From Akkermansia muciniphila (lineage in GTDB: Bacteria; Verrucomicrobiota; Verrucomicrobiia; Limisphaerales; UBA1100), in contig CAMDOH010000016.1 in the NCBI GenBank assembly GCA_945903605.1, forward strand, positions 1 through 43,660: 43,660 nucleotides of DNA, given 5' to 3'. The translations under genes and the position numbers were made by a program. The notes beneath the pieces are model-generated. The model had not been told where the DNA came from. It saw only the letters and a program-made list of their open reading frames with translations, and did no database searches. Below are positions 3,835 through 18,173 of the stretch, one piece after another (positions within the stretch are counted from its first letter, which is position 1; every line of letters starts with the position of its first letter).

Positions 3835-3849
3835 TTCGTCATCGCTTGG
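3823..3849. terminator. weak stem-loop at convergent stop codons (Sel1 gene / kinase)
   Basis: Arms AGTGAT (3830-3835) and ATCGCT (3841-3846) pair around a TCGTC loop with one G-T pair. A further CCA/TGG pairing is separated by a 3-base bulge. The structure covers both opposing TGA stops. There is no T-run on either side, so intrinsic termination is uncertain. Confidence 0.2.
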
Positions 3850-6346
3850 CGAGGTCGTGGGTTTTCCAGAACGATTCAGCTCGCTCCACTTTCGTTGAAT
3901 CGGAGTCGTACTGATATGAGATGCGTTTGAGCTTCGGCATCTGTCGCAGAAAATCGATGGGGCCGTGATTGGGTGGAAGGATGAGTTGCTCGAGTTCCGA
4001 GCAGGCCGCCAGTGCGCGGAGATCTTTTAATCGCTCGCAACCATCGAGCCGCAATTCGCGCAGGGGAATTCCTGAAAGCGGGGTGATGTCGTCCACAGGG
4101 GTCCGGTCGAGGTGCAGGCTTTGCAGGGTGAGGTTTGACAGCGGGCCGAGGTCCGTCACTTTTGTGCCGCTGAGGTGGAGATAAATCAGCGGCATTCCGC
4201 GCAGGGGTTCGATGCCGGACACGGGGGAAAAGGAGACGGTGAGAGCGCTCATGGGCATCCCGCGCAACGGTTCCAAGTCCGATACCCCGGTGAAGGCCAG
4301 ATAAAGTTCTTGAAGCGGCATTCCTCTCAACGGCCGGAGATCCTGAACTTTGACTTCCCAAAGGTTGAGCGAGATCACGGGAAGTTGAGTGAAGGTTCGG
4401 AGATCGCGCAGAGGAGTGCGGGAGAGATTGAGTTTGAGGTAGCCGAAATTGTCGCGGGTGATTCGGGAGAAGCCGAAGGGCTTGATGCCTTCATTCGCGC
4501 GGGTCCACGCGGAGTTTTTTTCTTCTTCAATGCGCGGTGCGATCAACTGGCTTTCGGCGGTGCGTTGTTGTTGGATCAACTGTCTTTGGAGTGCGTGCAG
4601 GAGATGCAGTGGAATGTGGGCTGCGGCCTGTGCTTCGTTGGCGAGCCGGTCGCTTAACTGGTGATTGAGTGCCGTCTGCGGCGAGGTGTCGCCGAGGCGA
4701 ATGGCTTCGGCGTAGGTGGTTTTGGCGAGAGCAAATTGGAGGAGGGTTTGTAGAATGTCGGCCTTGAGTCGCCGATGTTCAGCGACGGCGGGTTCAAGTT
4801 GAATGGCGAGATTGATTTTTTCCAGCGCTTCGGCGGGTAGTCTTTCGTTTAAACTCTGGCGGGCGATTTGGTGGTAGAGCGGCGCGGCGTGGCGGAGCTG
4901 GCCGATGGTTTCATTTGAGTCGACGGCGCGTTTGGCAAAAATGGCTGTGGCGGAAATCGTGAGCAGAATAGTGATGGCGGCGACGGAGGCGAGAGTGGGA
5001 TGACGCCGTATTCCCAGTTGAAATTGTCGAAAGAAGCCGGCGCGTTCGGCGGTGGTCGCGTGGTCAGATTGGTAGGCGGCGACTTCGCGCTGGAGTTCGT
5101 CAACGGACTGATAACGTTTTTCTGGATTGTGACTCAGCGCCTTCATGGCGACTGCGGAGAGAGAATCGGGAATGTGCCCATTGGGGCAATGAATGAGCGC
5201 GATGGATTCTCGGCCTTTGGTTGGATTGTAGCTGGTCGGCGTGGCTGGATTGCCGGCCTTGATTTTGACGAGCAGTTCTTGCTCGTTACTTGCGGTGAAC
5301 GGCGGTCGAAGCGTGAGGATGTCGTAAAGGATTGCGCCGAGGTTGAAGATGTCAGTGCGTTCATCCATTTGTTGAACACGGCCTTCGGCTTGTTCGGGCG
5401 ACATGAAATTGGGCGTGCCAATCATGGTGCCGAATCGTGTGTCCGAATGTTTGGTTGGCGCTTCTGTCGGCAGGTCGCATTGCGTTGGGTCCGGTTCGGG
5501 ATCGCTCAGTATTTTTGCAAGTCCCCAATCGAGCACCAACACTTCGCCAAAGCTGCCGACGAGAATGTTGGCCGGTTTTAGGTCGCGGTGGATGATGTGT
5601 TTGGAATGGGCGCAGGCGACGGCGTCGCAGATTTTCCGGAAGATGACGAGAAGCTCTGCAAGAGTGTAGCGGTTGACGACTTCAGCGCGGTTGGCTCGCA
5701 GCCCGGCCAGGATTTCCTTGAGCGTCAAGCCGGGGACGAATTTCATCGCATAGAAATTTCGTCCATGCGAATCGGTGCCGAGGTCGTAGATAGGGACGAT
5801 GTTTGGATGCTCGAGTCGACCGAGGATGAGTGCTTCCTGAACAAAACGGCGGACGATGTCGGGATGATCGCCGTGTTTGGGTGCAGCCATTTTCAGTGCG
5901 ACTGGCCGCTGAAATTGGCGGTCGAGTGCTTGGTAAACGATCCCCATCCCGCCTTGATTGAGGGTTTGCAGGATTTCGTAGCGCGGGATCACCGGTGTGG
6001 TCGGCGGTGGAGTGGAGTCGATGGCCAGTTGTGGCTGGCATTCTACGAAGGGTTGGATTTCGATCTCGGTTTTACCGAGCGTGATGAGTTGTCCAAATTG
6101 GATTTGAACCCGGCCGTGGATGCGTTTGTTGTCGATGAACGTCCCGTATCGGCCACCGACATCTTCGATTTCCAATCGGCCATCGATGAAAGTGAGTCTT
6201 GCGTGTTTTCGGGAAACTTCTGGGGAAGGGATCGGCACAGGGCAGGCTGGATCACGGCCCAGCAGATATTCTCCAGCTTCCAGTTGGCACTGGAAAAGAG
6301 TTGCACCGCCCTTGCGGACGGTTATCTGGATTGCTGTCTGGCTCAT
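3839..6346 (-). CDS. FHA domain - Ser/Thr protein kinase - TM - helical repeat - leucine-rich-repeat protein
   Basis: Membrane-anchored Hanks-type kinase of 835 residues. An N-terminal FHA domain (about 10-100) has GRD at 30-32 and SRKH at 45-48, the phosphothreonine-binding signature. The kinase domain (about 123-425) has the glycine loop NQGGMGIVY (130-138), K152, HRDLKPAN (253-260, catalytic D255), D273 in DWG instead of DFG, and SPE (316-318). A TM helix lies at 452-470, followed by a helical TPR-like part (about 485-600). The C-terminus has about six leucine-rich repeats of 22-23 residues (about 635-792; GMPLQELYL, GMPLIYLHL), presumably outside the cytoplasm. Catalytic residues are intact, so it should be active. 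AAGGAGGA abuts the start codon, closer than a normal Shine-Dalgarno. It diverges from the ABC/SPFH operon; substrates are unknown. Confidence 0.9.
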   Translation of the reverse strand: MSQTAIQITVRKGGATLFQCQLEAGEYLLGRDPACPVPIPSPEVSRKHARLTFIDGRLEIEDVGGRYGTFIDNKRIHGRVQIQFGQLITLGKTEIEIQPFVECQPQLAIDSTPPPTTPVIPRYEILQTLNQGGMGIVYQALDRQFQRPVALKMAAPKHGDHPDIVRRFVQEALILGRLEHPNIVPIYDLGTDSHGRNFYAMKFVPGLTLKEILAGLRANRAEVVNRYTLAELLVIFRKICDAVACAHSKHIIHRDLKPANILVGSFGEVLVLDWGLAKILSDPEPDPTQCDLPTEAPTKHSDTRFGTMIGTPNFMSPEQAEGRVQQMDERTDIFNLGAILYDILTLRPPFTASNEQELLVKIKAGNPATPTSYNPTKGRESIALIHCPNGHIPDSLSAVAMKALSHNPEKRYQSVDELQREVAAYQSDHATTAERAGFFRQFQLGIRRHPTLASVAAITILLTISATAIFAKRAVDSNETIGQLRHAAPLYHQIARQSLNERLPAEALEKINLAIQLEPAVAEHRRLKADILQTLLQFALAKTTYAEAIRLGDTSPQTALNHQLSDRLANEAQAAAHIPLHLLHALQRQLIQQQRTAESQLIAPRIEEEKNSAWTRANEGIKPFGFSRITRDNFGYLKLNLSRTPLRDLRTFTQLPVISLNLWEVKVQDLRPLRGMPLQELYLAFTGVSDLEPLRGMPMSALTVSFSPVSGIEPLRGMPLIYLHLSGTKVTDLGPLSNLTLQSLHLDRTPVDDITPLSGIPLRELRLDGCERLKDLRALAACSELEQLILPPNHGPIDFLRQMPKLKRISYQYDSDSTKVERAESFWKTHDLAKR

Positions 6347-6531: not shown

Positions 6532-7923
6532 GTGCGTGCTTATTGGATCATAGCGACGAATGCGTTCATGGAGCTGATTCGTCAGCCTGTGTTCCTCCTG
6601 CTTTTCACGGCATCGTCCAGCGCGTGTCTATTTCTGGCGTTGATTCCCTATGTTGGATTTGGCGATGACCCGAAGCTTGCCAAGGACGGCGCATTGGCCG
6701 TGATGTTTCTATCGGGCCTGTTTGGGGCTGTGATCAGCGCATCCTCATCTGTGGCGCAGGAAATTCAAACGGGCACGGCACTGGCAGTGCTCTCCAAACC
6801 TGTCAGCCGCCTGCAATTCATTCTGGGTAAATACACGGGGCTTGCCGCCGGGTTGACGGTGCTTTGTTACACCAACACGCTGAGTGTGCTGTTGGCAGGG
6901 AGAATGGCATTCGATGCCTATGGGAATCCGGACCTCGTTGGCGCAACGATTTTCTTTGGTGGCCTTGCTCTCGCCTACATGGCTGGCGGGGTGGTCAATT
7001 ACTTTCTCAACAAGCCGTTCGTGCCGTGGGCGGTGCTGTTCACGGTGCTCGCGATTTCGATTGGGTTTATTCTCATCTGCTCGATTGACAAGGAAACGGC
7101 GTGGCGTTGGGTGGATAACCGGCTTCAGGAGAATGAAGTCATTTCCTTTGCCGACCTCTGGGTCTTTGCCAGCAACAAGCCGGACATGAAGTTTGGTATG
7201 GGTGTCGATTGGCGCCTGTTCAAAGCCTGCATCCTGATTCTATTTGCGCTTTGGATTTTAGCCGCAGTCGCGCTGGCCTGTTCCACTCGCCTGTCGTGGA
7301 TGCCGAGTTTGATCATCTGCTCGTTGGTTTTCGTGATGGGCTTGATGTCCGATTACCTTTTCGGAAAGCAGGCCATCGGGGGCACATTTTTGAAGCCCGG
7401 TGAGCTGATACTTTGGCATCCACCGGCAGGGAAAGAAGGGGTGTTCACGTTGATGGAGCTAAAGACCGGCGGCGTTGTGGACGCCACCAATCGTCCGCTG
7501 TCCGTTCACGCATTCGTGACGGGCGTGACGAACGCCGTGGCGCCGCTTCCGCAGGAAGGCTCGATCATGGTGGGCGTGACGCAACCAGGGAAATCAATCG
7601 CACTGACATTCGAGCGTGTGCGTGACGAATTAAAATTGGGCAGGGGACGGGGGAACGAAGGTCACCTTTCATTTATGGTGTTGCCGAGCGGGGTGGGCAC
7701 ACTGGAGAAAAACAACCAGGTTGTGCCTGCGGGGTCGTGGTGGGGAAAAATGCTTTACGTTTTGGTTCCCAATTGGCAGCTTTTCTGGCTCGCGGATGCT
7801 TTAGGCCCCGACCAGAGCATTCCTTGGAAGTATGTGGGCACGTCACTTTTATATGTCATCGCTTATTTGAGCGTGATGTTGTGCCTGTCATTGGTGCTGT
7901 TTGAAGGTCGTGAATTAAGCTGA
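6532..7923 (+). CDS. ABC-2 type exporter permease, first of the operon
   Basis: Membrane subunit of an ABC-2 family exporter. The GTG start gives RAYWIIATNAFMELIRQPVF, the usual opening of these permeases. Hydrophobic segments lie near residues 17-37, 55-80, 105-120, 140-155 and 165-185, then around 230-280 and at the C-terminus (about 435-458). Between the last two is a soluble domain (about 285-420) rich in beta-prone sequence. The motif KPVSRLQFILGKYTG resembles KPIARWQVWIGKWLG in the second permease of the operon; both proteins are 463 residues. No ATPase is adjacent; the nearest is at 13985. It is followed after 4 bases by the first SPFH gene. Substrate unknown. Confidence 0.8.
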   Translation: MRAYWIIATNAFMELIRQPVFLLLFTASSSACLFLALIPYVGFGDDPKLAKDGALAVMFLSGLFGAVISASSSVAQEIQTGTALAVLSKPVSRLQFILGKYTGLAAGLTVLCYTNTLSVLLAGRMAFDAYGNPDLVGATIFFGGLALAYMAGGVVNYFLNKPFVPWAVLFTVLAISIGFILICSIDKETAWRWVDNRLQENEVISFADLWVFASNKPDMKFGMGVDWRLFKACILILFALWILAAVALACSTRLSWMPSLIICSLVFVMGLMSDYLFGKQAIGGTFLKPGELILWHPPAGKEGVFTLMELKTGGVVDATNRPLSVHAFVTGVTNAVAPLPQEGSIMVGVTQPGKSIALTFERVRDELKLGRGRGNEGHLSFMVLPSGVGTLEKNNQVVPAGSWWGKMLYVLVPNWQLFWLADALGPDQSIPWKYVGTSLLYVIAYLSVMLCLSLVLFEGRELS

Positions 7924-7927
7924 AATT

Positions 7928-9922
7928 ATGAATCGAAGCAGCAAGACAGCCGGCTTTTACAATTTGCTCGTGGCAACCGCTGCCCTTCTTTGCGGAATCA
8001 TCCTGGCCCTCGTGGGCGGCAAAGGATTCCCCTTCGGCGTCGTGCTGTTGATTCTGTTGGTGGTCGGATTCCTGATCGCCGTGATGGGTTTTTTCCACGT
8101 CTCGCTCAAATCACGCGAGCAATTGGAGGCGATGGAACTGGAAGAATTGCAACGGTCTTCGCGAGGCGCATCACTATTTGAAACTACGGAAGTGGAGGGA
8201 TTGCCCGCCCGTCGTTCGCGCGAACAATTCGAACACTGGGCAGTGCCTGTGTTCACCACGGCACTGTTCATCTTTGAATGCGTCGTGATTTTCTATGCCG
8301 TTCGATATCTGAGCGGAAGTTTCCAGACGCAGAGCGCCACAGTCGCAGCAGGGCAGGTCACGAAGTTTATCAGTATGGATTTGGCTTACGTGTTGATGGG
8401 GGGCGGCGCGCTGTTGGGTTTGGTGCTTTTCTTGTGGGGGCAATACACGACGAGATTTGCGCGGCTTTCTGGTGAGACGCTCCTGCAGCCAGCAGCGGAA
8501 TACCTTCTGTTGACTGGTTATTTCCTGTTCGGTTTGGTGTTGGTGGTGGGTGTCGGATTCCAGTTTCAGATGATTCATCTGTACGCCTCTTGGGCATTGG
8601 TTGGTTTCATTTCACTGATTGCCTTTGAACGTTTTCTCGCGCTGATTTTGGAGGGCTACCGTCCCAGAACGCGTGGCGAAAAGCTGCGGCTCATTTATCA
8701 GAGCCGGCTCGTGGGGCTGTTCTGCAAGCCGGAAAGCTTCTTCGTCACTGCTGCGCAAACGCTCGATTATCAATTCGGTTTCAAGGTCTCGGAAACTTGG
8801 GGGTACAAATTCCTGCAAGAACGCATTGGAATGATCGTACTGGGGCAGGCAATTTTATTCTGGCTGTCAACTTCGGTGACAGTGATCCACCCGTCGGAAG
8901 TGGGCGTCGTCGAACGGTTCGGACAACCCGTCGGTATTGTGTTGAACCCGGGCGCATCGTTCACGATGCCGTGGCCGATCGACAAGGTCACCCGATTCAC
9001 TCCGGACACGGTGCAATCATTTTACGTCGGACTTCCGCCCGATGAGGAAGAGCACGGACATTCCGACGGGCACGGAGACAACCATGAAAAGGCGCATTTT
9101 TGGTCGCAGCCACATCGTGTGAAAGATTATGAGCGGCTGATGGAAGTGGGTCTTCTCTATTTCTCCGTTGGCAGCACGAACAAAGATGTCGAATCCAACC
9201 TCATCTACGCGAGCATCCCCGTTCAGTTCCGGGTGAAAGACGTTCGTAAATGGATCACGGCCTATAACGACCCCGCGAAGTTACTGCGTACATTGGCCAC
9301 ACGCGAAGTGACCCGCCACTTTTTGAAGATAGATTTCGATGCCTTGATGATGCAGGAACGAGTATCGGCGATGGACACACTTCGCAGCAAGATTCAGGAG
9401 TCCGCCAATCAACACGGATTGGGTGTGGAAATCCTGATGCTCGGCCTCGGGGATATTCATCCACCCGCCGAATCACCGCGTGCGCTTGCCATCGTGGCCG
9501 ATGGGCCGCCACCGACCGGCCCCGGCGCACCGCCCGTCGCCGTCACTTATGAAGATCTGGTCAATGCCCGGCATGAAAATGTTCGGGACATTCGCTTCGC
9601 AAAAATGCGCCAGAAAAGCAACATGCGCGTGGCTGAATCTACCGTGGCGCAGATCAATGCCGATGGTGAGGCGAAGCTCAGAGAGATCCGCACTGGCGGC
9701 TTGGCGACGGCTGCTGCCTTCACCAATCAATTCGCGGCCTATGGATATTCGCCGAGGGTATTCCCGAATTATCTGTATCTGGACATGGTCGCGCGTGCGA
9801 TGCAGCAACCGCGCAAATACATTTTTGCCGTCACCAACGTCCACGACACTCTGGACATCAACCTCGAACAGCAACTCCGCAAAGGGCTGCTGGATATCGG
9901 TGTCGAAGTCCCGCCCAAATAA
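7928..9922 (+). CDS. SPFH/Band-7 (HflK-like) protein with N-terminal multi-pass membrane domain
   Basis: 664 residues, much longer than HflK (about 420). The N-terminal 320 residues hold about seven hydrophobic segments: near 10-31, 34-58, 103-125, 148-172, 190-212, 217-242 and 300-320. An SPFH domain follows from about 321: VIHPSEVGVVERFGQP, then PGASFTMPWPIDKVTRF. A histidine-rich insert at 373-390 has His at 376, 378, 382, 386 and 390. The helical part 540-640 includes AESTVAQINADGEAKLREI, typical of the SPFH coiled coil. SPFH proteins form oligomeric membrane scaffolds; HflK/HflC enclose the FtsH protease in E. coli. It is tightly linked to two more SPFH genes. The multi-pass domain is not recognised as a known family. 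Function is inference. Confidence 0.85.
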   Translation: MNRSSKTAGFYNLLVATAALLCGIILALVGGKGFPFGVVLLILLVVGFLIAVMGFFHVSLKSREQLEAMELEELQRSSRGASLFETTEVEGLPARRSREQFEHWAVPVFTTALFIFECVVIFYAVRYLSGSFQTQSATVAAGQVTKFISMDLAYVLMGGGALLGLVLFLWGQYTTRFARLSGETLLQPAAEYLLLTGYFLFGLVLVVGVGFQFQMIHLYASWALVGFISLIAFERFLALILEGYRPRTRGEKLRLIYQSRLVGLFCKPESFFVTAAQTLDYQFGFKVSETWGYKFLQERIGMIVLGQAILFWLSTSVTVIHPSEVGVVERFGQPVGIVLNPGASFTMPWPIDKVTRFTPDTVQSFYVGLPPDEEEHGHSDGHGDNHEKAHFWSQPHRVKDYERLMEVGLLYFSVGSTNKDVESNLIYASIPVQFRVKDVRKWITAYNDPAKLLRTLATREVTRHFLKIDFDALMMQERVSAMDTLRSKIQESANQHGLGVEILMLGLGDIHPPAESPRALAIVADGPPPTGPGAPPVAVTYEDLVNARHENVRDIRFAKMRQKSNMRVAESTVAQINADGEAKLREIRTGGLATAAAFTNQFAAYGYSPRVFPNYLYLDMVARAMQQPRKYIFAVTNVHDTLDINLEQQLRKGLLDIGVEVPPK

Positions 9923-9934
9923 TACCCCGCCATC

Positions 9935-10849
9935 ATGAAACGCAACTCAGCCTGGATCGTCGCAATCCTTCTCGTATTCATTTTCCTGTTCTTCATGTTC
10001 ACCTACACGGTGCGGCAGAATGAACTGGTGCTTGTCCAGCGAGGCAGCGACAGCACCGAAATTCGCACGCCCGGATTGAAATTCCGGCTGCCGGCTCCTT
10101 TCCACAAGATCTTCAAGTTCGACAACCGTACTTACCTGCTGGAGACAGATTACAGTCAGGTGAATGACACGGAAAAGACGCTGATGATGCAAGTGTACGT
10201 CGCCTGGAAAATTGACGGTTCCAACCCGAAGAAATTCCAGACCACATTTCAGGCGAACAACGAGCGGGGAATGCTCGATCTCGCCGAAGGCAGTCTGCGC
10301 AAGATTGTCGACACCGTTCGCAGCTCCGTTGTCGGTCAAAATCAGATCGGCTCGATCATCTCCAGCGAAGCGGGCTTGGCCAAAATTGATGAACTTGAAA
10401 ATAAGATGAGCGAGAAAGTCAAATTGCAGGCAAAGGAGAACTACGGGATTGATGTGCAATTCCTCGGCGTCCGGCGCGTTGGGTTGCCGAAGAGCAACAT
10501 CGACGCCGTCCTCAAAACGATGAGCGCACAACGATTGCTGATCGCCGAGAATATCCGACGCGAAGGCAGAGCCGAGGCCGACAAGATTCTGGCCACGGCC
10601 ACCAATGCTGCCTCCACATTGATTTCAGATGCGAAGGATCAATTGACGCGCGAGCGAGGCAAAGCCGACGCCGAACGCGCCGAGGCATTTCAACGGATGG
10701 AACGCAATCCTGAGCTGGCCGTTTTCTTGAAAAAACTGAAGGCACTTGAGGAATCCCTCAAAGGCAAATCGACTTTGATTCTGGACGATCGCACGCAGCC
10801 ATTCGATTTGTTGCGTGGATTCTCAACCAACTTCACCGGCAACAAATAA
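9935..10849 (+). CDS. SPFH/Band-7 protein, HflC-like
   Basis: 304 residues, the size of HflC. One N-terminal TM helix (about 7-27, WIVAILLVFIFLFFMFTYTV) precedes the SPFH domain (VRQNELVLVQRG, TPGLKFRLPAPFHKIFKFDNR). The C-terminal half is a charged helix (AENIRREGRAEADKILATA, DQLTRERGKADAERAEAFQ) expected to form the coiled coil of a ring or cage. The R-x-E-x-R-A-E-A-D-K pattern is shared with HflC and stomatins. It lies between two other SPFH genes with 12- and 7-base gaps, so the three products probably form a hetero-oligomer. A regulatory role on a protease, transporter or lipid domain is inferred from the family only. Confidence 0.85.
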   Translation: MKRNSAWIVAILLVFIFLFFMFTYTVRQNELVLVQRGSDSTEIRTPGLKFRLPAPFHKIFKFDNRTYLLETDYSQVNDTEKTLMMQVYVAWKIDGSNPKKFQTTFQANNERGMLDLAEGSLRKIVDTVRSSVVGQNQIGSIISSEAGLAKIDELENKMSEKVKLQAKENYGIDVQFLGVRRVGLPKSNIDAVLKTMSAQRLLIAENIRREGRAEADKILATATNAASTLISDAKDQLTRERGKADAERAEAFQRMERNPELAVFLKKLKALEESLKGKSTLILDDRTQPFDLLRGFSTNFTGNK

Positions 10850-10856
10850 TATACTC

Positions 10857-11960
10857 ATGTCGGCCAAAGACCCCCATCTGCATTCAGAAACAGTCTTGAG
10901 CGAGACGAGTTCTCGGGCATTGACCGAGGCGCTCAGTTCGAGTTCGACCGTGCTCAAAGTGGTGATCGCGGGCCTGCTCATTTATTTCGTGTTCTCAAAT
11001 TGTTTTCGCGTCAAGCCGGGCGAGCGTGCCCTCGTGCTCCGCTTCGGCCGTTCGTTGCAGACGGGTGAGTCGGAATTGTTGACCGAAGGAATCCGTTTTG
11101 CTTGGCCGTACCCGATTGATGAACGCGTGATCATGCCCGGTGGAAATCAAAAAGTGCGTGCGGCCAATGGCTGGTACACCACCGAGGCACCGCCACAAGT
11201 CAAAGATCCAATGGGGCAACCGGTCGTGCCGGCGTTTGATGCGGAGAAGGACGGATTTCTGATCACACGAGACTGGAACCTCATCCACGCAAAAGCCTCG
11301 TTCGAGTTCAAAGTGAAAAGCCCTGTGGATTACGCGTTCAAATTTGAAAAGCTCGATCAGATGCTAAAAATCACCATCGAGTCGGCGATGACGGGCGCGG
11401 CTTTTGAGATGAGCGCAGACGAAATTCTGGGTGATCAAAGTGTTTTTGAACGCAAGATTGAACAGCGGATGGAACGCATGATCGAGAGCCGAGGTCTTGG
11501 CGTTGGACTCGTGAGTGTCAAACTCGACAGTAAACCCATCGTGCCGCGACAGACCAAAGGCGCCTACGACAATGCCATGCGCGCTCCGACAGATGTCGAG
11601 GAAGCACGGGTTCGTTCTCTTGCTCAGGCGCAGACACTCACCAGTCAGGCTTCGAGCGAATCAGAACAAATCCTTTCCACCGGCCGCAGGGAAATCAAAC
11701 AGTTGACCAATCAAGCCAAGGCAGACGCTGACCGGATAGACGAGATTTTGCGAAAGAACGAGAGCCATCAGAAACTGTACCTCTTCATGCAGGAGCAACT
11801 CATGGACACACTCGCGCGAGTGATGAACAGTGCGGATATTGAGAAATGGCTTGTCAGCACGAAGACCGAGGGGCCACCAAGAGAGATTCGTATTCGATTG
11901 ACCCCTGAACCGCCCGAGCCGCGCAAGCAACCACAGCCGCCCACGCCTGCCCAGCCTTAA
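10857..11960 (+). CDS. SPFH/Band-7 protein, HflK-like
   Basis: The ATG at 10857, 7 bases after the preceding stop, is preferred over an in-frame GTG at 10815 that would overlap the upstream gene. The product is 367 residues. A TM helix at about 32-52 (VVIAGLLIYFVFSNCF) precedes the SPFH domain (RVKPGERALVLRFGRS, EGIRFAWPYPIDERVI), with a helical region from about 235 on (ARVRSLAQAQTLTSQASSES, QAKADADRIDEILRKNES). The tail is proline-rich (PEPPEPRKQPQPPTPAQP). It is the third SPFH gene in a row and is followed after 11 bases by the P1B ATPase. The predicted topology has a short cytoplasmic N-terminus and the SPFH domain on the far side, as in HflK. Partner proteins are inferred from the operon. 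Confidence 0.85.
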   Translation: MSAKDPHLHSETVLSETSSRALTEALSSSSTVLKVVIAGLLIYFVFSNCFRVKPGERALVLRFGRSLQTGESELLTEGIRFAWPYPIDERVIMPGGNQKVRAANGWYTTEAPPQVKDPMGQPVVPAFDAEKDGFLITRDWNLIHAKASFEFKVKSPVDYAFKFEKLDQMLKITIESAMTGAAFEMSADEILGDQSVFERKIEQRMERMIESRGLGVGLVSVKLDSKPIVPRQTKGAYDNAMRAPTDVEEARVRSLAQAQTLTSQASSESEQILSTGRREIKQLTNQAKADADRIDEILRKNESHQKLYLFMQEQLMDTLARVMNSADIEKWLVSTKTEGPPREIRIRLTPEPPEPRKQPQPPTPAQP

Positions 11961-11971
11961 AGATTAATTTC

Positions 11972-13951
11972 ATGCAGCCAAATCCATCCATCACAGGAGC
12001 GCCTTCCTGCACTGAACCCGATCAAGATCGCGGCAGCGTCAATTTGACGATGCTTTTCATCGGCCTGCTATTCGTGATCAACGGATACCTCGTCACATGG
12101 CTCAACAGAGACAATGCGAGCGTGGGCGATTACAGCGCACTGATAGGTTCGGTGCTGCTCGGTGCCCGGATTTTTCGCAACGCCATTCTCAATCTTGCCA
12201 AAGGTTCACTCACGACCAACGAACTGGTCGCCATCGCTGTGCTCGCTTCATTCGCCTCCGGGCATTATCACGAAGCGGGTCTTGTCGCATTTTTTATGCT
12301 GCTGGCCGAGATGATCGAGACGCGCACGGCTGCAGGCGCTCGCGCTTCCATTGAATCCCTCATCAAGCTCACCCCCACCCGGGCGCGGCGTATCATCAAT
12401 ACGGGCGAGGAAGAAGTGGCCGCCAAAGATTTACTTGTCGGCGACATCATTCGCGTACGTCCCGGCGACGTGATTCCTGCCGATGGAATGATCGACAAGG
12501 GCGCAGGCTCGATCAACCAAGCCAATATCACCGGAGAGTCCATGCCGGTGGATAAGAAATCGGGCGACGAAGTTTTTCAAGGCACGCAGAATATCACCGG
12601 CGTACTCGAAGTGCGCGTCACCAAAGCAGGCGAAGACACCACATTCAGTCGCGTTCGCGAACTGATTCTCGCAGCGGAAAAGACGAAGCTGCCGTTCATG
12701 AAAATTGTCGACCAATACATGGGCTATTATACGCCGCTCATCTTGGTCATTGGCGCGCTTGTCTGGGCTGTCACCAACGATCTGACTCGCGTCATCACCG
12801 TGTTCATCGTGGGTTGCCCCTGCGCATTCATCTTGGCAACGCCCACCGCCATCGTCGCTGCTCTATCGGCTGCCGCCCGATTGGGTGTGTTGATCAAAAA
12901 CGTGGGAGACATCGAGTTGGCCGCGAAAATCAACGCATTCATCTTTGATAAAACGGGGACGCTCACCACCGGTAAATTAGCTGTCAGTCGTCTTGCAAAT
13001 GCCGAAGGAATCAAGCCAGCCGAATTATTGCTCGCCGCTGCGACGGCTGAGAAATACAGCAATCATCCAACGGCAAAGGCACTGCAAACGCTCGCCGAAG
13101 AGGCTGGTTTGAAATTAGCTGATCCACAGGATTTCACAGAAGTGACTGGGCGCGGCGTCAAGGCGCGTGTGAATGGTGAATGGGTTTTGGTCGGACGCGA
13201 ACTCTGGATGCGCGAACAAAATGTCACCGGCGATTATTCATCGAAGGTGGATGTGAAAGAGGCCGAGGGATACAGTTTAGTGTTTGTCTCAGTCGGCGGC
13301 AAATTCATCGGATGGATTGGATTGACCGATCAGGTGCGAACAGAGGCGGCTTCGGCGCTTTTGGAATTGAAAGATGAAGGCGTGCGCCGGATGGCGATCG
13401 TTTCAGGCGACCTTCGGTTGGTGGCAGAGCGAGTGGGGCGCGAAATCGGATGTGAGGAAGTCATCGCCGAATGTCTGCCACAAAACAAAGTTGAGTTTGT
13501 GCGCCAGATGAAAGCCAAAGGCTATACGGTGGCAGTGGTGGGCGACGGTGTGAACGATGCTCCGGCGCTGGCTGCTGGCGACATCGGTATTGCGATGGGA
13601 GCGGCGGGCAGCGAAGTGGCCATCAATAGCGCAACCATCGCGCTCATGAATAACGATCTGAAACGACTGCCGTTCTTGGTGCGCCTTTCGCGTGTGACGC
13701 GTTCGGTGATCAATCAAAACTTCCTGTTGGGCATTCTCTTTGTGGTCGGCGGTCTGGTGCTTGCCTCGCTCAAGCTGATCAATCCAGTTTTGGCGGCCTG
13801 CCTACACGTCGTGGGATCGATGATCGTGGTTTTCAACAGCGCTCGACTCGTACGTCAAGGCGAGGAGCTGGAACCATTTTTGAAACCATTGTCGCCGGCA
13901 CCGACAACGCCGACAGAAGGAGCTTCGGCACTTTCTCCGAAGACGGCTTGA
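11972..13951 (+). CDS. P1B-type heavy-metal translocating ATPase lacking an N-terminal metal-binding domain
   Basis: Membrane pump for a transition-metal cation. The landmarks are TGES (187-190), the membrane motif CPC (282-284), the phosphorylated Asp in DKTGT (D326), the nucleotide-binding HP (365-366) and GDGVNDAP (524-531). Two TM pairs precede the A domain. No HMA metal-binding domain or CxxC precedes them, although Cys13 lies in the N-terminal tail. In the last TM helix, where Zn/Cd pumps usually have D-x-G, this protein has H612-V-V-G-S616, reminiscent of the HEGG[ST] motif of P1B-4 (Co/Fe-type) pumps, but those usually carry SPC rather than CPC. Metal specificity therefore cannot be assigned. 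It lies between the SPFH trio and the ABC ATPase. Confidence 0.92.
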   Translation: MQPNPSITGAPSCTEPDQDRGSVNLTMLFIGLLFVINGYLVTWLNRDNASVGDYSALIGSVLLGARIFRNAILNLAKGSLTTNELVAIAVLASFASGHYHEAGLVAFFMLLAEMIETRTAAGARASIESLIKLTPTRARRIINTGEEEVAAKDLLVGDIIRVRPGDVIPADGMIDKGAGSINQANITGESMPVDKKSGDEVFQGTQNITGVLEVRVTKAGEDTTFSRVRELILAAEKTKLPFMKIVDQYMGYYTPLILVIGALVWAVTNDLTRVITVFIVGCPCAFILATPTAIVAALSAAARLGVLIKNVGDIELAAKINAFIFDKTGTLTTGKLAVSRLANAEGIKPAELLLAAATAEKYSNHPTAKALQTLAEEAGLKLADPQDFTEVTGRGVKARVNGEWVLVGRELWMREQNVTGDYSSKVDVKEAEGYSLVFVSVGGKFIGWIGLTDQVRTEAASALLELKDEGVRRMAIVSGDLRLVAERVGREIGCEEVIAECLPQNKVEFVRQMKAKGYTVAVVGDGVNDAPALAAGDIGIAMGAAGSEVAINSATIALMNNDLKRLPFLVRLSRVTRSVINQNFLLGILFVVGGLVLASLKLINPVLAACLHVVGSMIVVFNSARLVRQGEELEPFLKPLSPAPTTPTEGASALSPKTA

Positions 13952-13984: not shown

Positions 13985-15175
13985 ATGGCTGACAATAAAC
14001 CAGATGCAGCGCCGGAGAATGTGGTGGTCGTGCGCGGCTTGTCGAAAGTCTTCAAAGATTTCTGGGGTCGATCGAAGGCCAAGGCGGTGGACAATGTGAA
14101 TTTCGAAGTGCGCCGTGGCGAAGTATTTGGGTTGCTCGGACCGAACGGGTCCGGAAAATCCACCACCATCAAAATGCTTCTTGGATTGCTGGATCCAACT
14201 CAAGGCTTGATCCAGGTTTTCGGCAAGGAACCGCACGATGTGAAGACAAAAATGCGCATCGGTTATCTGCCCGAGGAATCCTATCTTTACAAATATCTCG
14301 ATTCAGGTGAGACGCTGGATTTTTTTGGGAACCTGTTTTCATTGAGCAGCGAGGAGCGAAAGAAACGATCCACCCAACTTCTGGACATGGTGGGGTTGAC
14401 TCGCACTCAGAACAGAACGGTGGGCGAGTTTTCTAAAGGAATGCAGCGGCGCATCGGCTTGGCGCAGGCGCTCATCAACGACCCGGACCTGATCATTCTC
14501 GATGAACCGACTGCGGGAATGGATCCGATTGGTTGCCGTGAAATCAAGGATCTCATCCTCACGATGGCGCGCCGTGGAAAGACGGTGATCCTGAGCAGTC
14601 ACTTGTTGTCGGATGTGGAAGATGTCTGCGACCGCGCTGTGATTTATTATGGCGGAAAGATTCAGGCGATCGGCAGCTTGAAAGATCTGCTTTCGGAGCG
14701 TGACACGATCCGGATCACAACGCCGGCATTGACGAAGGAGCGTCTCCAGGAAGTGCTCGCAGTCATCGGCAAGGATGTGGCCGAAGATCGGATTCGCATT
14801 GATAACCCGACACAGAATCTGGAGGGATATTTCCTCAATATCGTCAATCAAGCGCGCAAGACCGAAGAGACATCGGGTGCGACTTCGGGAAGTCAAGTGG
14901 CCGAATACTTACGCGGGAACGGTGGGCCTGTGCAATCATCCGATAAGATGCTGGACCGACTATCGGTTTCGGCGCCTGTGAAGGAGGCTGAAGTGATCGT
15001 GACGGCTGCGGTTATCGACACTGTGGATCATGCCAAGCTCACGGGATTGGCTACGCAACAACCCGCCGCTCCGATCGTGGTCGCGCCTGCGGTGGCACAG
15101 GAAGATTTGAATGTGGCAGACCAGAAGTTGAAGGGACTGCTGGGCGACGGCGGTCATTCCAAACCTTCCAATTAG
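13985..15175 (+). CDS. ABC transporter ATP-binding protein (ABC-2 exporter type)
   Basis: Drives the ABC-2 permease or permeases encoded in the same operon. Walker A is GPNGSGKST (52-60), the signature is FSKGMQRR (149-156) and Walker B is LIILDEPTAGMDP (169-181), followed by the switch histidine in SSHLLSDVEDVCDRA. After the ABC core (about 15-240) there is an unusually long C-terminal part of about 155 residues. It contains a conserved-looking segment (TLTKERLQEVL, LEGYFLNIVNQA) and then a low-complexity tail rich in Val, Ala and Pro. Typical exporter ATPases of this class have about 300 residues. The second permease starts 12 bases downstream and the first is 6 kb upstream. Cytoplasmic face of the inner membrane. 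Confidence 0.92.
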   Translation: MADNKPDAAPENVVVVRGLSKVFKDFWGRSKAKAVDNVNFEVRRGEVFGLLGPNGSGKSTTIKMLLGLLDPTQGLIQVFGKEPHDVKTKMRIGYLPEESYLYKYLDSGETLDFFGNLFSLSSEERKKRSTQLLDMVGLTRTQNRTVGEFSKGMQRRIGLAQALINDPDLIILDEPTAGMDPIGCREIKDLILTMARRGKTVILSSHLLSDVEDVCDRAVIYYGGKIQAIGSLKDLLSERDTIRITTPALTKERLQEVLAVIGKDVAEDRIRIDNPTQNLEGYFLNIVNQARKTEETSGATSGSQVAEYLRGNGGPVQSSDKMLDRLSVSAPVKEAEVIVTAAVIDTVDHAKLTGLATQQPAAPIVVAPAVAQEDLNVADQKLKGLLGDGGHSKPSN

Positions 15176-15187
15176 GCGGACACGATC

Positions 15188-16579
15188 ATGCGTCCGACTC
15201 TCGCGATTGTCTGGCTCACGTGGAAAGCAGCGTGGCGTTTTCGTCTTCTCTGGGTGTTGGCTGTTCTGTTGGTTTTCGCTGTGGGCGTTTTGCCGATGAT
15301 CGTCCGTCACGATGGGACTGGCAAAGGGCTGATGCAAATTGTCCTGACTTACACCATGTCGATGGTCATGGCGATTTTGGGGACGTTTACCCTTTGGCTT
15401 TCCTGCGGCACGTTGGCGAAAGACATCGAGGAATGCCAGATGCAGATGGTGTGCGTAAAACCCATCGCGCGATGGCAGGTGTGGATCGGTAAATGGCTCG
15501 GAGTGATGTCGCTCAACTTGATGTTGCTCGGCGCAGCAGGCGTGATTGTGTATGGCACCGTCATGTATCGCGCATCCAAACTGCCGGAAAGGCAGCTTGC
15601 AATTTTGAATCAGCAGGTGCTCGTGGGGCGCGGTTCGGCGAAGCAGGACAACACAGCCATCCATAAAAGCATCGAAGAAGACGTTGAGAAGAACATGAAG
15701 ATCGCCATCGCGCAGGGAAAGGTGGACGCCTCCATGGATCAACAGTCGCTGAGTCGGGTGGCCGATTCGTTGCGAGAAGAACTCAAGGCGCGTCGTGAGA
15801 TTTTGCTTCCGGGCGTTGCCCCGCGCGAGTGGACGGTGATCGTCCCCGGTGCGAAGGATTTCAAGATCGGCCACGTCGTCGTGCTGCGCGTGAAATTCCA
15901 AACACCGTCACCCGTGGATTCGAATGTGTATCGGACGCGTTGGGAATTCGGTCCTGGCACGGTACAGGCGGTGGGGGCACCGCTCACCCCTCATGCTTTT
16001 CATGAAATCCCCGTGCCGGTGGAAGCCTTTGCTGGAGGGGACGTGTTGAAGGTGCGGATGTACAATTTCCCCGACAACCCTTCGATGTTCAGGCTTCCAC
16101 TGGAGGACTCATTGGAAGTGTTGTATCGCGAATCGAGTTTCGCTTTGAACTTTGCGCGCGGAATGGCGCTCCTGTTTTGCTGGATTGGTGTACTCGCAGC
16201 GATGGGATTGGCAGCGGCCAGCTTCATGTCATTCTCCATGGCGGCATTTGCCTGCATGGGTTTGTTGATCGCTTCTTTTTCAACGCCCTTGTTGAAGGAG
16301 GTCGTGAAAGATTCGACCATCATGCAGAGCCATTCGCACGATGGGAAACGTAACACGTCCTTGCTGGACAAATTTGCGATCCCCGCATTTCAGCTTCTTT
16401 TGACCGTCATGGAACCGATCAAGGATTATTCGCCGATCGAATCGCTGAGTGCTGGGCGCAGCATCACTTGGGGCCAGTTGCAAAAGGCATACTTTTTTGT
16501 GTGGGGAATTTGTGGCGGAGCGATGGCCTGTTTTGGCATAGTCGTATTCCAACGAAAACAACTGGCACTGCCAGGTTGA
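15188..16579 (+). CDS. ABC-2 type exporter permease, second of the operon
   Basis: Membrane subunit encoded directly after the ABC ATPase. TM segments are near residues 17-37, 55-78, 112-130, 320-342, 346-368 and 435-455. Between 140 and 315 is a large soluble domain. Its first part is helical and charged (HKSIEEDVEKNMKIAIAQGK); its second part is beta-rich with aromatic residues (VLRVKFQTP, YRTRWEFGPG, VPVEAFAGGDVLKVRMYN) and may be outside the cytoplasm. It has the same length as the first permease and shares the pattern K-P-x-x-R-x5-G-K-x-x-G, so the two may be distant paralogues forming a heterodimer. The following gene starts within a few bases of its stop. Substrate unknown. Confidence 0.8.
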   Translation: MRPTLAIVWLTWKAAWRFRLLWVLAVLLVFAVGVLPMIVRHDGTGKGLMQIVLTYTMSMVMAILGTFTLWLSCGTLAKDIEECQMQMVCVKPIARWQVWIGKWLGVMSLNLMLLGAAGVIVYGTVMYRASKLPERQLAILNQQVLVGRGSAKQDNTAIHKSIEEDVEKNMKIAIAQGKVDASMDQQSLSRVADSLREELKARREILLPGVAPREWTVIVPGAKDFKIGHVVVLRVKFQTPSPVDSNVYRTRWEFGPGTVQAVGAPLTPHAFHEIPVPVEAFAGGDVLKVRMYNFPDNPSMFRLPLEDSLEVLYRESSFALNFARGMALLFCWIGVLAAMGLAAASFMSFSMAAFACMGLLIASFSTPLLKEVVKDSTIMQSHSHDGKRNTSLLDKFAIPAFQLLLTVMEPIKDYSPIESLSAGRSITWGQLQKAYFFVWGICGGAMACFGIVVFQRKQLALPG

Positions 16580-16580
16580 C

Positions 16581-18173
16581 GTGATGGAGACCCCTCAAAA
16601 AATGGACAGGTTTGCTGCTCGTGCTGCCGGCAGGAGGCGTGTGTTGGGTTACAAAGTGACGTTGCTGCTGGTGCTCGCCGTCTGTCTTGCCATCAGCGGT
16701 CTGGCTCAACATCAGCTTAATCGGCAGAGGTCGGAGTTGAGTGTTTCATTTCTTGAGCCGTTGCAAGATGCGCCACCGGTGCTGGCATTTGTGTCCACCT
16801 CGTTGGGCGGATTCAAAGGGCTGGTTTCGAGCTTGCTTTGGTTTCGTGTGAACGAACTTCAGAATGAGAAAAAGTACGCGGAGCTGGTACAGCTCACCGA
16901 TTGGATCACCAAACTGCAGCCATTCATTCCGATGGTGTGGACGGATCGTGCGTGGAATCTGACTTATAATATTTCTGTGGCGCATCCGAATCCGGTGGAT
17001 CGTTGGCACTACGTCTACCAAGGAATCTCTCTGCTGCGTGACGAAGGGCTGCGTTACAATCCGCAAGAGCCGCTGCTGTACCATGAGCTTTCGTGGCATT
17101 TTCAGCACAAGTTGGGACAGAACCTCGATCAGCACCATTTCTACTACAAGCAGCAATGGTTGAATCGAATGACCGAGGTGTTGTGGGATACGCCACAGGA
17201 AGCATCCGCATCCAAAGGTCGTCCCGATTTTGATAGGCTGATCAATCCTGATAACGAGAAGAGCGCCGCGCGCAGAAAGCGTCTGGTTGAGGAATACAAG
17301 ATCGACCCGATTCGCATGAAGGAAGTGGATACCATCTACGGGCCGCTCGAATGGAGGTTGCCTGAAGTCCACTCCATTTACTGGGCCTGGTTGGGGATGG
17401 AGAAATGCAAAGAGAATCCTGCGCGAAAGAATATCCTAAAAAAACTTCAGCGGAGTTTGTTTCAATCGATGCAGATGACGTTCGTGCGAGGTAAACTCGT
17501 CTTTGATCCGTACTCCAAAAGTTTTGATTACGGGGCAAACCTCGAGATCATCAAGAAAGCCAATCAGGCCTATGTGGACATGGCTGAGCAGCTCGAGGAA
17601 AAAGACATCAAAGAAGGAGTGTTTGATCATGCTCATTGGAATTTTGTCCGGCACGCCATCTCGCAGCTCTACCTGCACAATCAGCAGACTGAAGCGCGGG
17701 AATGGCTCAAATATCTGGTGAAGCATTTCCCGAAGAAGATCGATTTCGAGCCAACGTTCGTGAATGGCAATATCAACCTCGACGATTTTTGCCTGCATCG
17801 GATTGAAGAGGACATCAAATCTGGCGGTCAGGATCGCGCAAAAAGCCTAGTCGAGGGACTCATCGGCAACGCCTACTATTTCTTCACCATTGGTGAAGAT
17901 GGACAGGCCGAAGGCCACTTGCTGATGGCCAAGAGAGTTGTCGCCCGATATGAAGCGCGTTCCTCCACTGCTGAAACCGGCCGGGTTGATCTTCCTCCAT
18001 TCGAAGACTCCCAGAAACTTATTTTGCACCGGTTCCTTTACGATACGAACACGCCACCGGCCATGCAGGCTGCGCTTCGCTCTCGACTCGGCATCGGTGC
18101 CACTGAAAAAATCGCGCTGCCCCCTCCGCCCATTCGCACGTCCACCAATTCAATCGTCAAGCCGAAGCTCTAA
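16581..18173 (+). CDS. membrane-anchored helical-repeat (TPR-like) protein of unknown function
   Basis: Not a family I can name. The start is GTG at 16581 or ATG at 16584. One TM helix lies at about 26-42 (VTLLLVLAVCLAISGLA). The remaining 490 residues are helical and rich in Trp, Tyr and charged residues, with TPR-like spacing (WFRVNELQNEKKYAELVQL, WFQ/WL pairs such as AREWLKYLVKHFPKKIDFEP). The C-terminal tail is proline-rich (PPPPIRTSTNS). It is the last gene of the operon and is tightly coupled to the second permease. An accessory or assembly role for the exporter is suggested by position only. It ends 12 bases before the convergent oppC stop. Confidence 0.7.
   Translation: MMETPQKMDRFAARAAGRRRVLGYKVTLLLVLAVCLAISGLAQHQLNRQRSELSVSFLEPLQDAPPVLAFVSTSLGGFKGLVSSLLWFRVNELQNEKKYAELVQLTDWITKLQPFIPMVWTDRAWNLTYNISVAHPNPVDRWHYVYQGISLLRDEGLRYNPQEPLLYHELSWHFQHKLGQNLDQHHFYYKQQWLNRMTEVLWDTPQEASASKGRPDFDRLINPDNEKSAARRKRLVEEYKIDPIRMKEVDTIYGPLEWRLPEVHSIYWAWLGMEKCKENPARKNILKKLQRSLFQSMQMTFVRGKLVFDPYSKSFDYGANLEIIKKANQAYVDMAEQLEEKDIKEGVFDHAHWNFVRHAISQLYLHNQQTEAREWLKYLVKHFPKKIDFEPTFVNGNINLDDFCLHRIEEDIKSGGQDRAKSLVEGLIGNAYYFFTIGEDGQAEGHLLMAKRVVARYEARSSTAETGRVDLPPFEDSQKLILHRFLYDTNTPPAMQAALRSRLGIGATEKIALPPPPIRTSTNSIVKPKL

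Follow-up and report, generated by a model that had tools for sequence, protein, structure and literature searches.

The window, a 43,660-nucleotide stretch of DNA, contains an uninterrupted forward-strand open reading frame at positions 7928–9922, which encodes a protein of 664 residues (hereafter SPFH1) that combines a predicted CDF-fold membrane domain with an HflK-type SPFH protein, as judged from the ORF, its Band_7 domain, structural models and the protein family. On the same strand follow the genes for two SPFH proteins with one TM each, namely, the HflC-like SPFH2 (9935–10849) and the HflK-like SPFH3 (10815–11960), both assigned through profile matches and hydropathy, and for a P1B-type heavy-metal P-type ATPase of 659 residues (11972–13951). 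The forward-strand neighbourhood further includes, upstream, an ABC-2-type permease (permease 1; 6532–7923) that is nearly constant within the order and, downstream, a GldA/DrrA-like ABC ATPase (13985–15175), identified by profile matches and neighbourhood counts, a second ABC-2-type permease with a weak Pfam match (permease 2; 15188–16579), and p8 (16581–18173), a protein of 530 residues with a hydrophobic N-terminus, which co-occurs with permease 2 and matches no Pfam family above the cut-off. The ABC ATPase, permease 2 and p8 (13985–18173) travel together in an arrangement resembling GldA/F. Divergent to the operon, a reverse-strand gene at 3839–6346 has a relative in 13 of 80 loci, and its translation, read by eye, suggests an FHA domain and a Ser/Thr kinase with C-terminal repeats. 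No inverted repeat was identified upstream of the operon, and promoter-like sites are no more numerous there than expected by chance.

The hydropathy profile of SPFH1 displays seven hydrophobic segments (residues 13–31, 38–56, 104–122, 152–170, 193–211, 223–241 and 302–320), and the AlphaFold2 models place a helix at each of them. The only Pfam match is Band_7 (PF01145; SPFH/Band 7 superfamily), which covers residues 319–516 (8882–9475) with an E value of 5e-14 and a score of 53.2 bits (cut-off of 23.6); SPFH structures match residues 299–630 of the full-length model. Among the NCBIfam models, the closest is HflK (TIGR01933), at 60.5 bits, well below its cut-off of 159.4. Given that residues 299–600 of the full-length model align with residues 79–310 of Escherichia coli HflK (Z score of 14.5), the seventh helix (TM7; residues 302–320, 8831–8887) is predicted to be the counterpart of the single TM that anchors HflK. 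According to the models, the seven helices are thus to be divided into six CDF-fold helices (residues 1–254, 7928–8689), a delineation based on VIA-align, hhalign and the metal-ligand columns, and an HflK-type anchor, rather than forming a single seven-helix domain. The intervening linker (residues 255–301, 8690–8830), predicted from the alignments to be cytosolic, is modelled as short helices leading into TM7 and lacks a Pfam match to the cytosolic metal-sensing C-terminal domain of CDF proteins. In the N-terminal part of the protein, conservation is strongest at E234, YRPR (244–247), S259, R260 and LDYQFGF (279–285), and that of the linker peaks at LDYQFGFKVSETW (279–291). The SPFH domain includes a His/acid-rich insert (residues 371–396, 9038–9115), the last residue of which is the conserved H396 (codon 9113–9115), and a second conserved histidine, H511 (codon 9458–9460), located in a His-Pro-Pro motif at a position occupied by arginine in E. 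coli HflK. In the AlphaFold2 model, the domain is followed by a long helix of the SPFH coiled-coil type (residues 537–624, 9536–9799). The original prediction, made from the nucleotide sequence, held that a membrane domain of about seven helices precedes an ordinary SPFH domain and sets the protein apart from the single-TM topology of HflK. The multi-pass arrangement and the departure from HflK are borne out, with structure prediction yielding helices at all seven segments instead of a single one, whereas the notion of one seven-helix domain gives way to the six-plus-one division, the last helix being that of HflK.

To characterize the membrane domain, we modelled residues 1–324 with AlphaFold2 from an alignment of 45 sequences (pLDDT of 89.1, pTM of 0.83). 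The two structure alignments comprised 63 (A3) and 45 (A4) of 80 sequences (the window and 79 others), with L106, which has a short frame, among those left out. When the candidates collected by Foldseek were realigned with VIA-align, the first 18 PDB rows were all CDF/ZnT proteins, led by YiiP (8f6h; Z score of 19.4, 2.4 Å over 188 aligned residues, model residues 4–245); the Z scores were 13.6–19.4 for rows 1–12 and 8.2–9.6 for rows 13–18, and the first non-CDF protein appeared in row 19 (8.2). The full-length model (pLDDT of 80.8, pTM of 0.56) again retrieved YiiP as the top structural match (Z score of 18.8, residues 1–249). At the sequence level, hhalign comparison of 133 N-terminal sequences (a set without L047, L054, L055, L058 and L106) with 22 CDF membrane domains, including FieF, produced a global score of 31.6 and a probability of 68% across residues 1–258. 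In the same global mode, the score was 8.3 (0.3%) for the reversed CDF profile, no higher than 6.4 for 40 column-permuted sets and no higher than 17.8 for five other gene families from the operon. The signal comes mostly from the sequences of other classes, which alone reach 55.9%, compared to 2.1% for the order of the window alone and 0.7% for the five proteobacterial members alone. By itself, Foldseek returned no PDB match for the membrane domain at E ≤ 0.001, with YiiP ranking second (E value of 0.15, probability of 0.97) in a list that mixes GPCR, ExbB and YiiP; hence, the CDF assignment relies on VIA-align and hhalign. No match to Pfam Cation_efflux (PF01545) was obtained for SPFH1, nor is this family among the matches shown for 24 family members, which gave only weak and scattered names. 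A search of PDB-chain sequences with the membrane-domain profile pointed to VPH2 as the best candidate, which was rejected as unconvincing (E value of 0.054).

Taken together, these results make it likely that the membrane domain of SPFH1 adopts the CDF fold, and descent from a common ancestor with the CDF proteins (YiiP/FieF and ZnT; PF01545), with which it shares the predicted fold and helix order but only weak profile similarity, appears probable. Helical bundles by themselves tend to score high in such comparisons, a typical best Z score of 14 being quoted for five mostly helical models, and the sequence signal is weak, so that an unrelated six-helix fold resembling the CDF bundle by chance has to be considered; yet the best score of 19.4, the derivation of the first 18 rows from one family, the same result with a second model and the excess of the forward over the reversed hhalign score render this explanation improbable. 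The domain nevertheless departs from the CDF proteins. The cytosolic C-terminal domain of the latter appears to be replaced by the linker, the seventh helix and the SPFH domain, and the site-A ligands (DxxxD in TM2 and HxxxD in TM5) are missing: at the columns of D45, D49, H153 and D157, which we take to be the ligands of FieF, SPFH1 has L43, G47, Y192 and T196, and none of the residues listed at these columns across the 133 sequences is a matching ligand, save for one histidine in the D45 column. Modelled in this way, the domain appears to be a degenerate CDF fold devoid of the CDF metal site and, by the usual criterion, its sequence would not qualify as that of a working CDF; transport has probably been given up. 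It could be argued that, as befits a fold of transporters, the domain is still an active cation transporter, operating in series with the ATPase through another site, for instance, around E234 in predicted helix 6, the only charged residue of the membrane helices to be invariant across all 133 aligned sequences, the proteobacterial ones included. However, with the canonical ligand columns vacated and few other conserved polar residues in the membrane, such activity would come as a surprise. The mean number of Lys and Arg residues per loop (1.8, 8.2, 3.5 and 8.4 for the inside loops versus 0.2, 1.5 and 0.8 for the outside ones) indicates an internal N-terminus and seven membrane crossings, so that the SPFH domain is predicted to be periplasmic, like that of HflK.

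The fusion is not confined to the window. Whole SPFH1 is found in 54 of the 58 genomes of the order, and the N-terminal 324 residues alone in 110 of the 288 genomes that sample the phylum. Beyond the genome of the window, matches to residues 1–324 are labelled as belonging to the same phylum, with none among the 20 same-class genomes listed; a further 158 genomes, outside this listing, are likewise devoid of a match. Upstream of the SPFH domain, 47 of 54 homologues display seven hydrophobic peaks and six display six, the remaining one, which is truncated, having two. A scan of contigs recovered 489 relatives, of which the best 80 were retained; most of these are titled as Verrucomicrobia-like, and bins of Verrucomicrobiales, Pedosphaera and Limisphaerales prevail among the nearest named ones; some titled Akkermansia muciniphila, Klebsiella or Proteobacteria are apparently mislabelled bins. 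Viral contigs yielded 14 pattern matches but no relative. The whole-genome search for the family covered two phyla, Verrucomicrobiota and Proteobacteria.

The conserved unit is a four-gene cassette consisting of SPFH1, the two ordinary SPFH proteins and the P1B metal ATPase. Downstream of SPFH1, among the loci of the order with sufficient room (80 loci in total), SPFH2 is present in 74/74, SPFH3 in 70/70 and the ATPase in 67/67, and among 20 loci from other classes the respective counts are 20/20, 19/19 and 19/19. The ABC genes follow a different pattern: the loci of the order have permease 1 upstream in 78 of 79 cases and, downstream, the ABC ATPase (55 of 59) and permease 2 (52 of 56), whereas the corresponding counts in other classes are 3 of 20, 17 of 19 and 10 of 18. 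The identical four-gene order was also identified on five plasmids, from Rhizobium sp. T1473, R. tumorigenes, Klebsiella aerogenes, Paraburkholderia sprentiae and Burkholderia ubonensis, on which the SPFH1 proteins have six or seven hydrophobic peaks and, where annotated, carry the RefSeq label ‘protease modulator HflK’. The ABC genes of the operon are not adjacent to the annotated proteobacterial cassettes; that of P. sprentiae adjoins genes for ZigA, a zinc ABC importer and PCu(A)C. Conservation of the fusion within the order, in other classes and on proteobacterial plasmids speaks against the accidental joining through an assembly error that the original prediction had allowed for, and SPFH1 is a real family, the product of neither chance nor misassembly. 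That prediction is partly supported overall: the membrane domain that it left unrecognized can now be named, on the strength of the models and a weak profile similarity, as CDF-like, but its suggestion of a channel or a lipid-organizing base finds no support in any of the results, which point instead to a predicted CDF fold lacking the ligands and to a P1B metal ATPase as the constant genomic partner. The gene order, the fusion and their conservation can be read directly from the sequences, and the identity of SPFH1, as judged from its sequence and the fold prediction, is reasonably firm, whereas we infer its function from the unvarying partners, from regulation in a single organism and from the co-loss described below.

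The ATPase of the window matches TIGR01525 with 536 bits (cut-off of 346) and contains the DKTGT and HP motifs, as well as a Cys-Pro-Cys motif in TM6 (residues 282–284, 12815–12823) and a histidine in TM8 (residue 612, 13805–13807). In a tree of 71 sequences that includes E. coli ZntA and CopA along with the other P1B ATPases of the relatives, all 41 cassette ATPases, that of the window among them, fall into one clade of 55 (support of 1.0); of the 14 further members of this clade, which come from relatives, 13 are encoded on a contig with an SPFH1 match and one is not. The TM6/TM8 motifs of 86 cassette ATPases are CPC/His in 71, SPV/N in six, VPA/H in four, CPV/Q in two and other combinations in three. 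Residues 1–60 contain a mean of 6.5 histidines in the CPC/H group compared to 0–2 in the other groups. Twelve ATPases outside the window, of the SPV, VPA and CPV groups, have neither CPC nor the His-rich N-terminus and belong to cassettes that keep the SPFH trio. The loss of CPC alongside a retained trio perhaps reflects a changed cargo.

Variation of the metal motif is partly mirrored in SPFH1. Across the 71 CPC/H cassettes, 51 columns of SPFH1 are at least 90% conserved, and the sole histidines among them are H396 (68/71) and H511 (69/71), with no conserved Cys or Met in this set. None of the six SPV/N and two CPV/Q cassettes retains either histidine, and only two more of the 51 columns are lost with them; in the SPV/N cassettes, H511 is replaced by arginine, matching E. 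coli HflK. By contrast, the four VPA/H cassettes and those with CPC/N, CPT/N and CPS/Y retain H396 and H511, so that both histidines are kept in 7 of the 15 cassettes with a motif other than CPC/H. Because the co-loss spans only two clades, the Fisher values associated with it overstate the evidence. Nonetheless, we regard this pattern in the sequences as a genuine hint that SPFH1, on its periplasmic face, may handle the metal of the pump.

Judging by published gene lists, the Pseudomonas aeruginosa cluster PA2439–PA2435, which comprises three SPFH genes and HmtA under the control of Zur, looks like the same cassette: in the published accounts, as excerpted, PaFlo5–7 and HmtA form one gene cluster of three SPFH genes and a P1B ATPase, as in the window, whereas the SPFH proteins are described as HflK/HflC-like and neither a multi-pass or CDF-like domain nor ABC genes are mentioned. 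The locus tags PA14_33070/33080/33110 given in the excerpts tie the PA2439 cluster to PaFlo5–7 (PMC9431628). According to the available passages, PA2437–PA2439 are upregulated 9–14 fold in a znuA mutant, in which hmtA (PA2435) also rises; the product of hmtA is termed an atypical Zn/Cu importer (PMC4542158), and import of Zn and Cu is reported for this P. aeruginosa protein only (PMC4542158, PMC8456098). In another excerpted study, Zur together with Zn binds the PA2439 promoter, and hmtA mRNA does not fall upon addition of Zn, for which the authors propose a role in copper handling (PMC8531726); upon Zn depletion, the PA2435, PA2438 and PA2439 proteins reportedly increase, with mixed significance (PMC11761036). 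The excerpts on the PaFlo5–7 triple deletion describe a decrease in biofilm of ~20% and a modest effect on virulence, and do not contain the terms HmtA and P-type (PMC13086221). Similarly, the terms P-type and Verrucomicrob do not occur in the portions available of the SPFH classification by Hinderhofer et al. (PMC2636767), and among the titles and passages retrieved from the open-access literature, no paper was found that ties SPFH to a CDF domain or describes the fusion.

Among the known systems closest to the cassette is the E. coli cage of HflK/HflC (TIGR01933 and TIGR01932), which modulates FtsH and shares with the cassette the SPFH domain, the anchor helix immediately preceding it, the long helix following it and the neighbouring SPFH genes, with E. 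coli HflK being the best SPFH-side structural match of SPFH1 residues 299–600. The differences are the six additional CDF-fold helices of SPFH1, the presence of three SPFH genes rather than two, a P1B ATPase in the place of hfq/hflX, and the two histidines, both absent from HflK, which also lacks the insert in which H396 resides. In QmcA–YbbJ and other SPFH–NfeD pairs, the SPFH cage has a partner in the membrane, as seen in structural matches, but there the NfeD partner is a separate protein, whereas the membrane domain of SPFH1 is fused and CDF-like. The likeness to HflK, together with hflC and hflK being the best models for SPFH2 and SPFH3, respectively, raises the possibility that the trio modulates FtsH as a complex of the HflK/HflC type, with the ATPase as a regulated client or a neighbour linked by chance and the metals incidental. 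We retain this explanation because the 2.68-Mb genome of the window encodes FtsH and only one further Band_7 protein, so that the trio may be its sole HflK/C-like set; still, it seems rather unlikely, given that all three SPFH proteins score below the hflK/hflC cut-offs, that a P1B ATPase occupies the fixed neighbouring position in every locus with room, that the annotated cassette regions name no FtsH gene and that P. aeruginosa, according to an excerpted account, has canonical HflK/C besides its trio (PMC13086221). Even less probable, in our view, is a membrane microdomain built by the trio for the ABC-2-type exporter of the same operon, with a secondary role for the metal ATPase: near-constant linkage to permease 1 and the ABC ATPase would fit such an arrangement in Verrucomicrobiota, but permease 1 is missing from 17 of 20 and permease 2 from 8 of 18 loci with room in other classes, the ABC genes do not flank the annotated proteobacterial cassettes, and the constant gene is that of the metal ATPase. 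The other Band_7 protein of the genome, encoded on contig C12, has ~334 residues and hydrophobic segments near its N-terminus.

The best reading of the cassette, to which we would give about an even chance, is an SPFH cage, walled by CDF-fold domains, that surrounds a metal pump. In such an assembly, SPFH1 would be an HflK-type ring protein with the six-helix CDF-fold domain ahead of its anchor helix, the three SPFH proteins would form a periplasmic cage resembling that of HflK/HflC, with the CDF-fold domains as its wall in the membrane, and the P1B ATPase would sit inside, as FtsH does in HflK/C. The LDYQFGF linker, predicted to be cytosolic, might provide the docking surface. On the predicted periplasmic side, H396 and H511 could hold or gate the metal moved by the pump. 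This metal would most likely be Zn(II) or Cu, and the direction of transport, by analogy with HmtA, would most likely be inward. More tentatively, and as a proposal that we would sooner doubt than assert, the whole may constitute a metal-handling compartment, in which the three-part cage and its site-less CDF wall enclose the P-type metal ATPase and the periplasmic histidines present the metal to it.

If such a compartment exists, it would represent a second type of enzyme-enclosing SPFH cage, dedicated to metals rather than proteolysis and common to Verrucomicrobiota and Proteobacteria, and some lineages would have switched it to a different cargo. SPFH cages are known around FtsH, and the P-type ATPase of the cassette is a testable candidate for a new client. 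A likely function would also emerge for the hflK/hflC-like genes that belong to the Zur regulon of P. aeruginosa, hitherto read as FtsH modulators in the excerpted accounts (PMC11761036, PMC9431628). A CDF fold that serves as a structural part and has no metal site would put a transporter fold to a new use. Within SPFH1, the paired loss of the histidines and the ATPase metal motif singles out H396 and H511. The window and the four VPA/H cassettes share a long form of the His/acid-rich insert (9038–9115) that ends with H396, with six to eight histidines, and in these VPA/H cassettes it is found together with ATPases that do not have a His-rich N-terminus.
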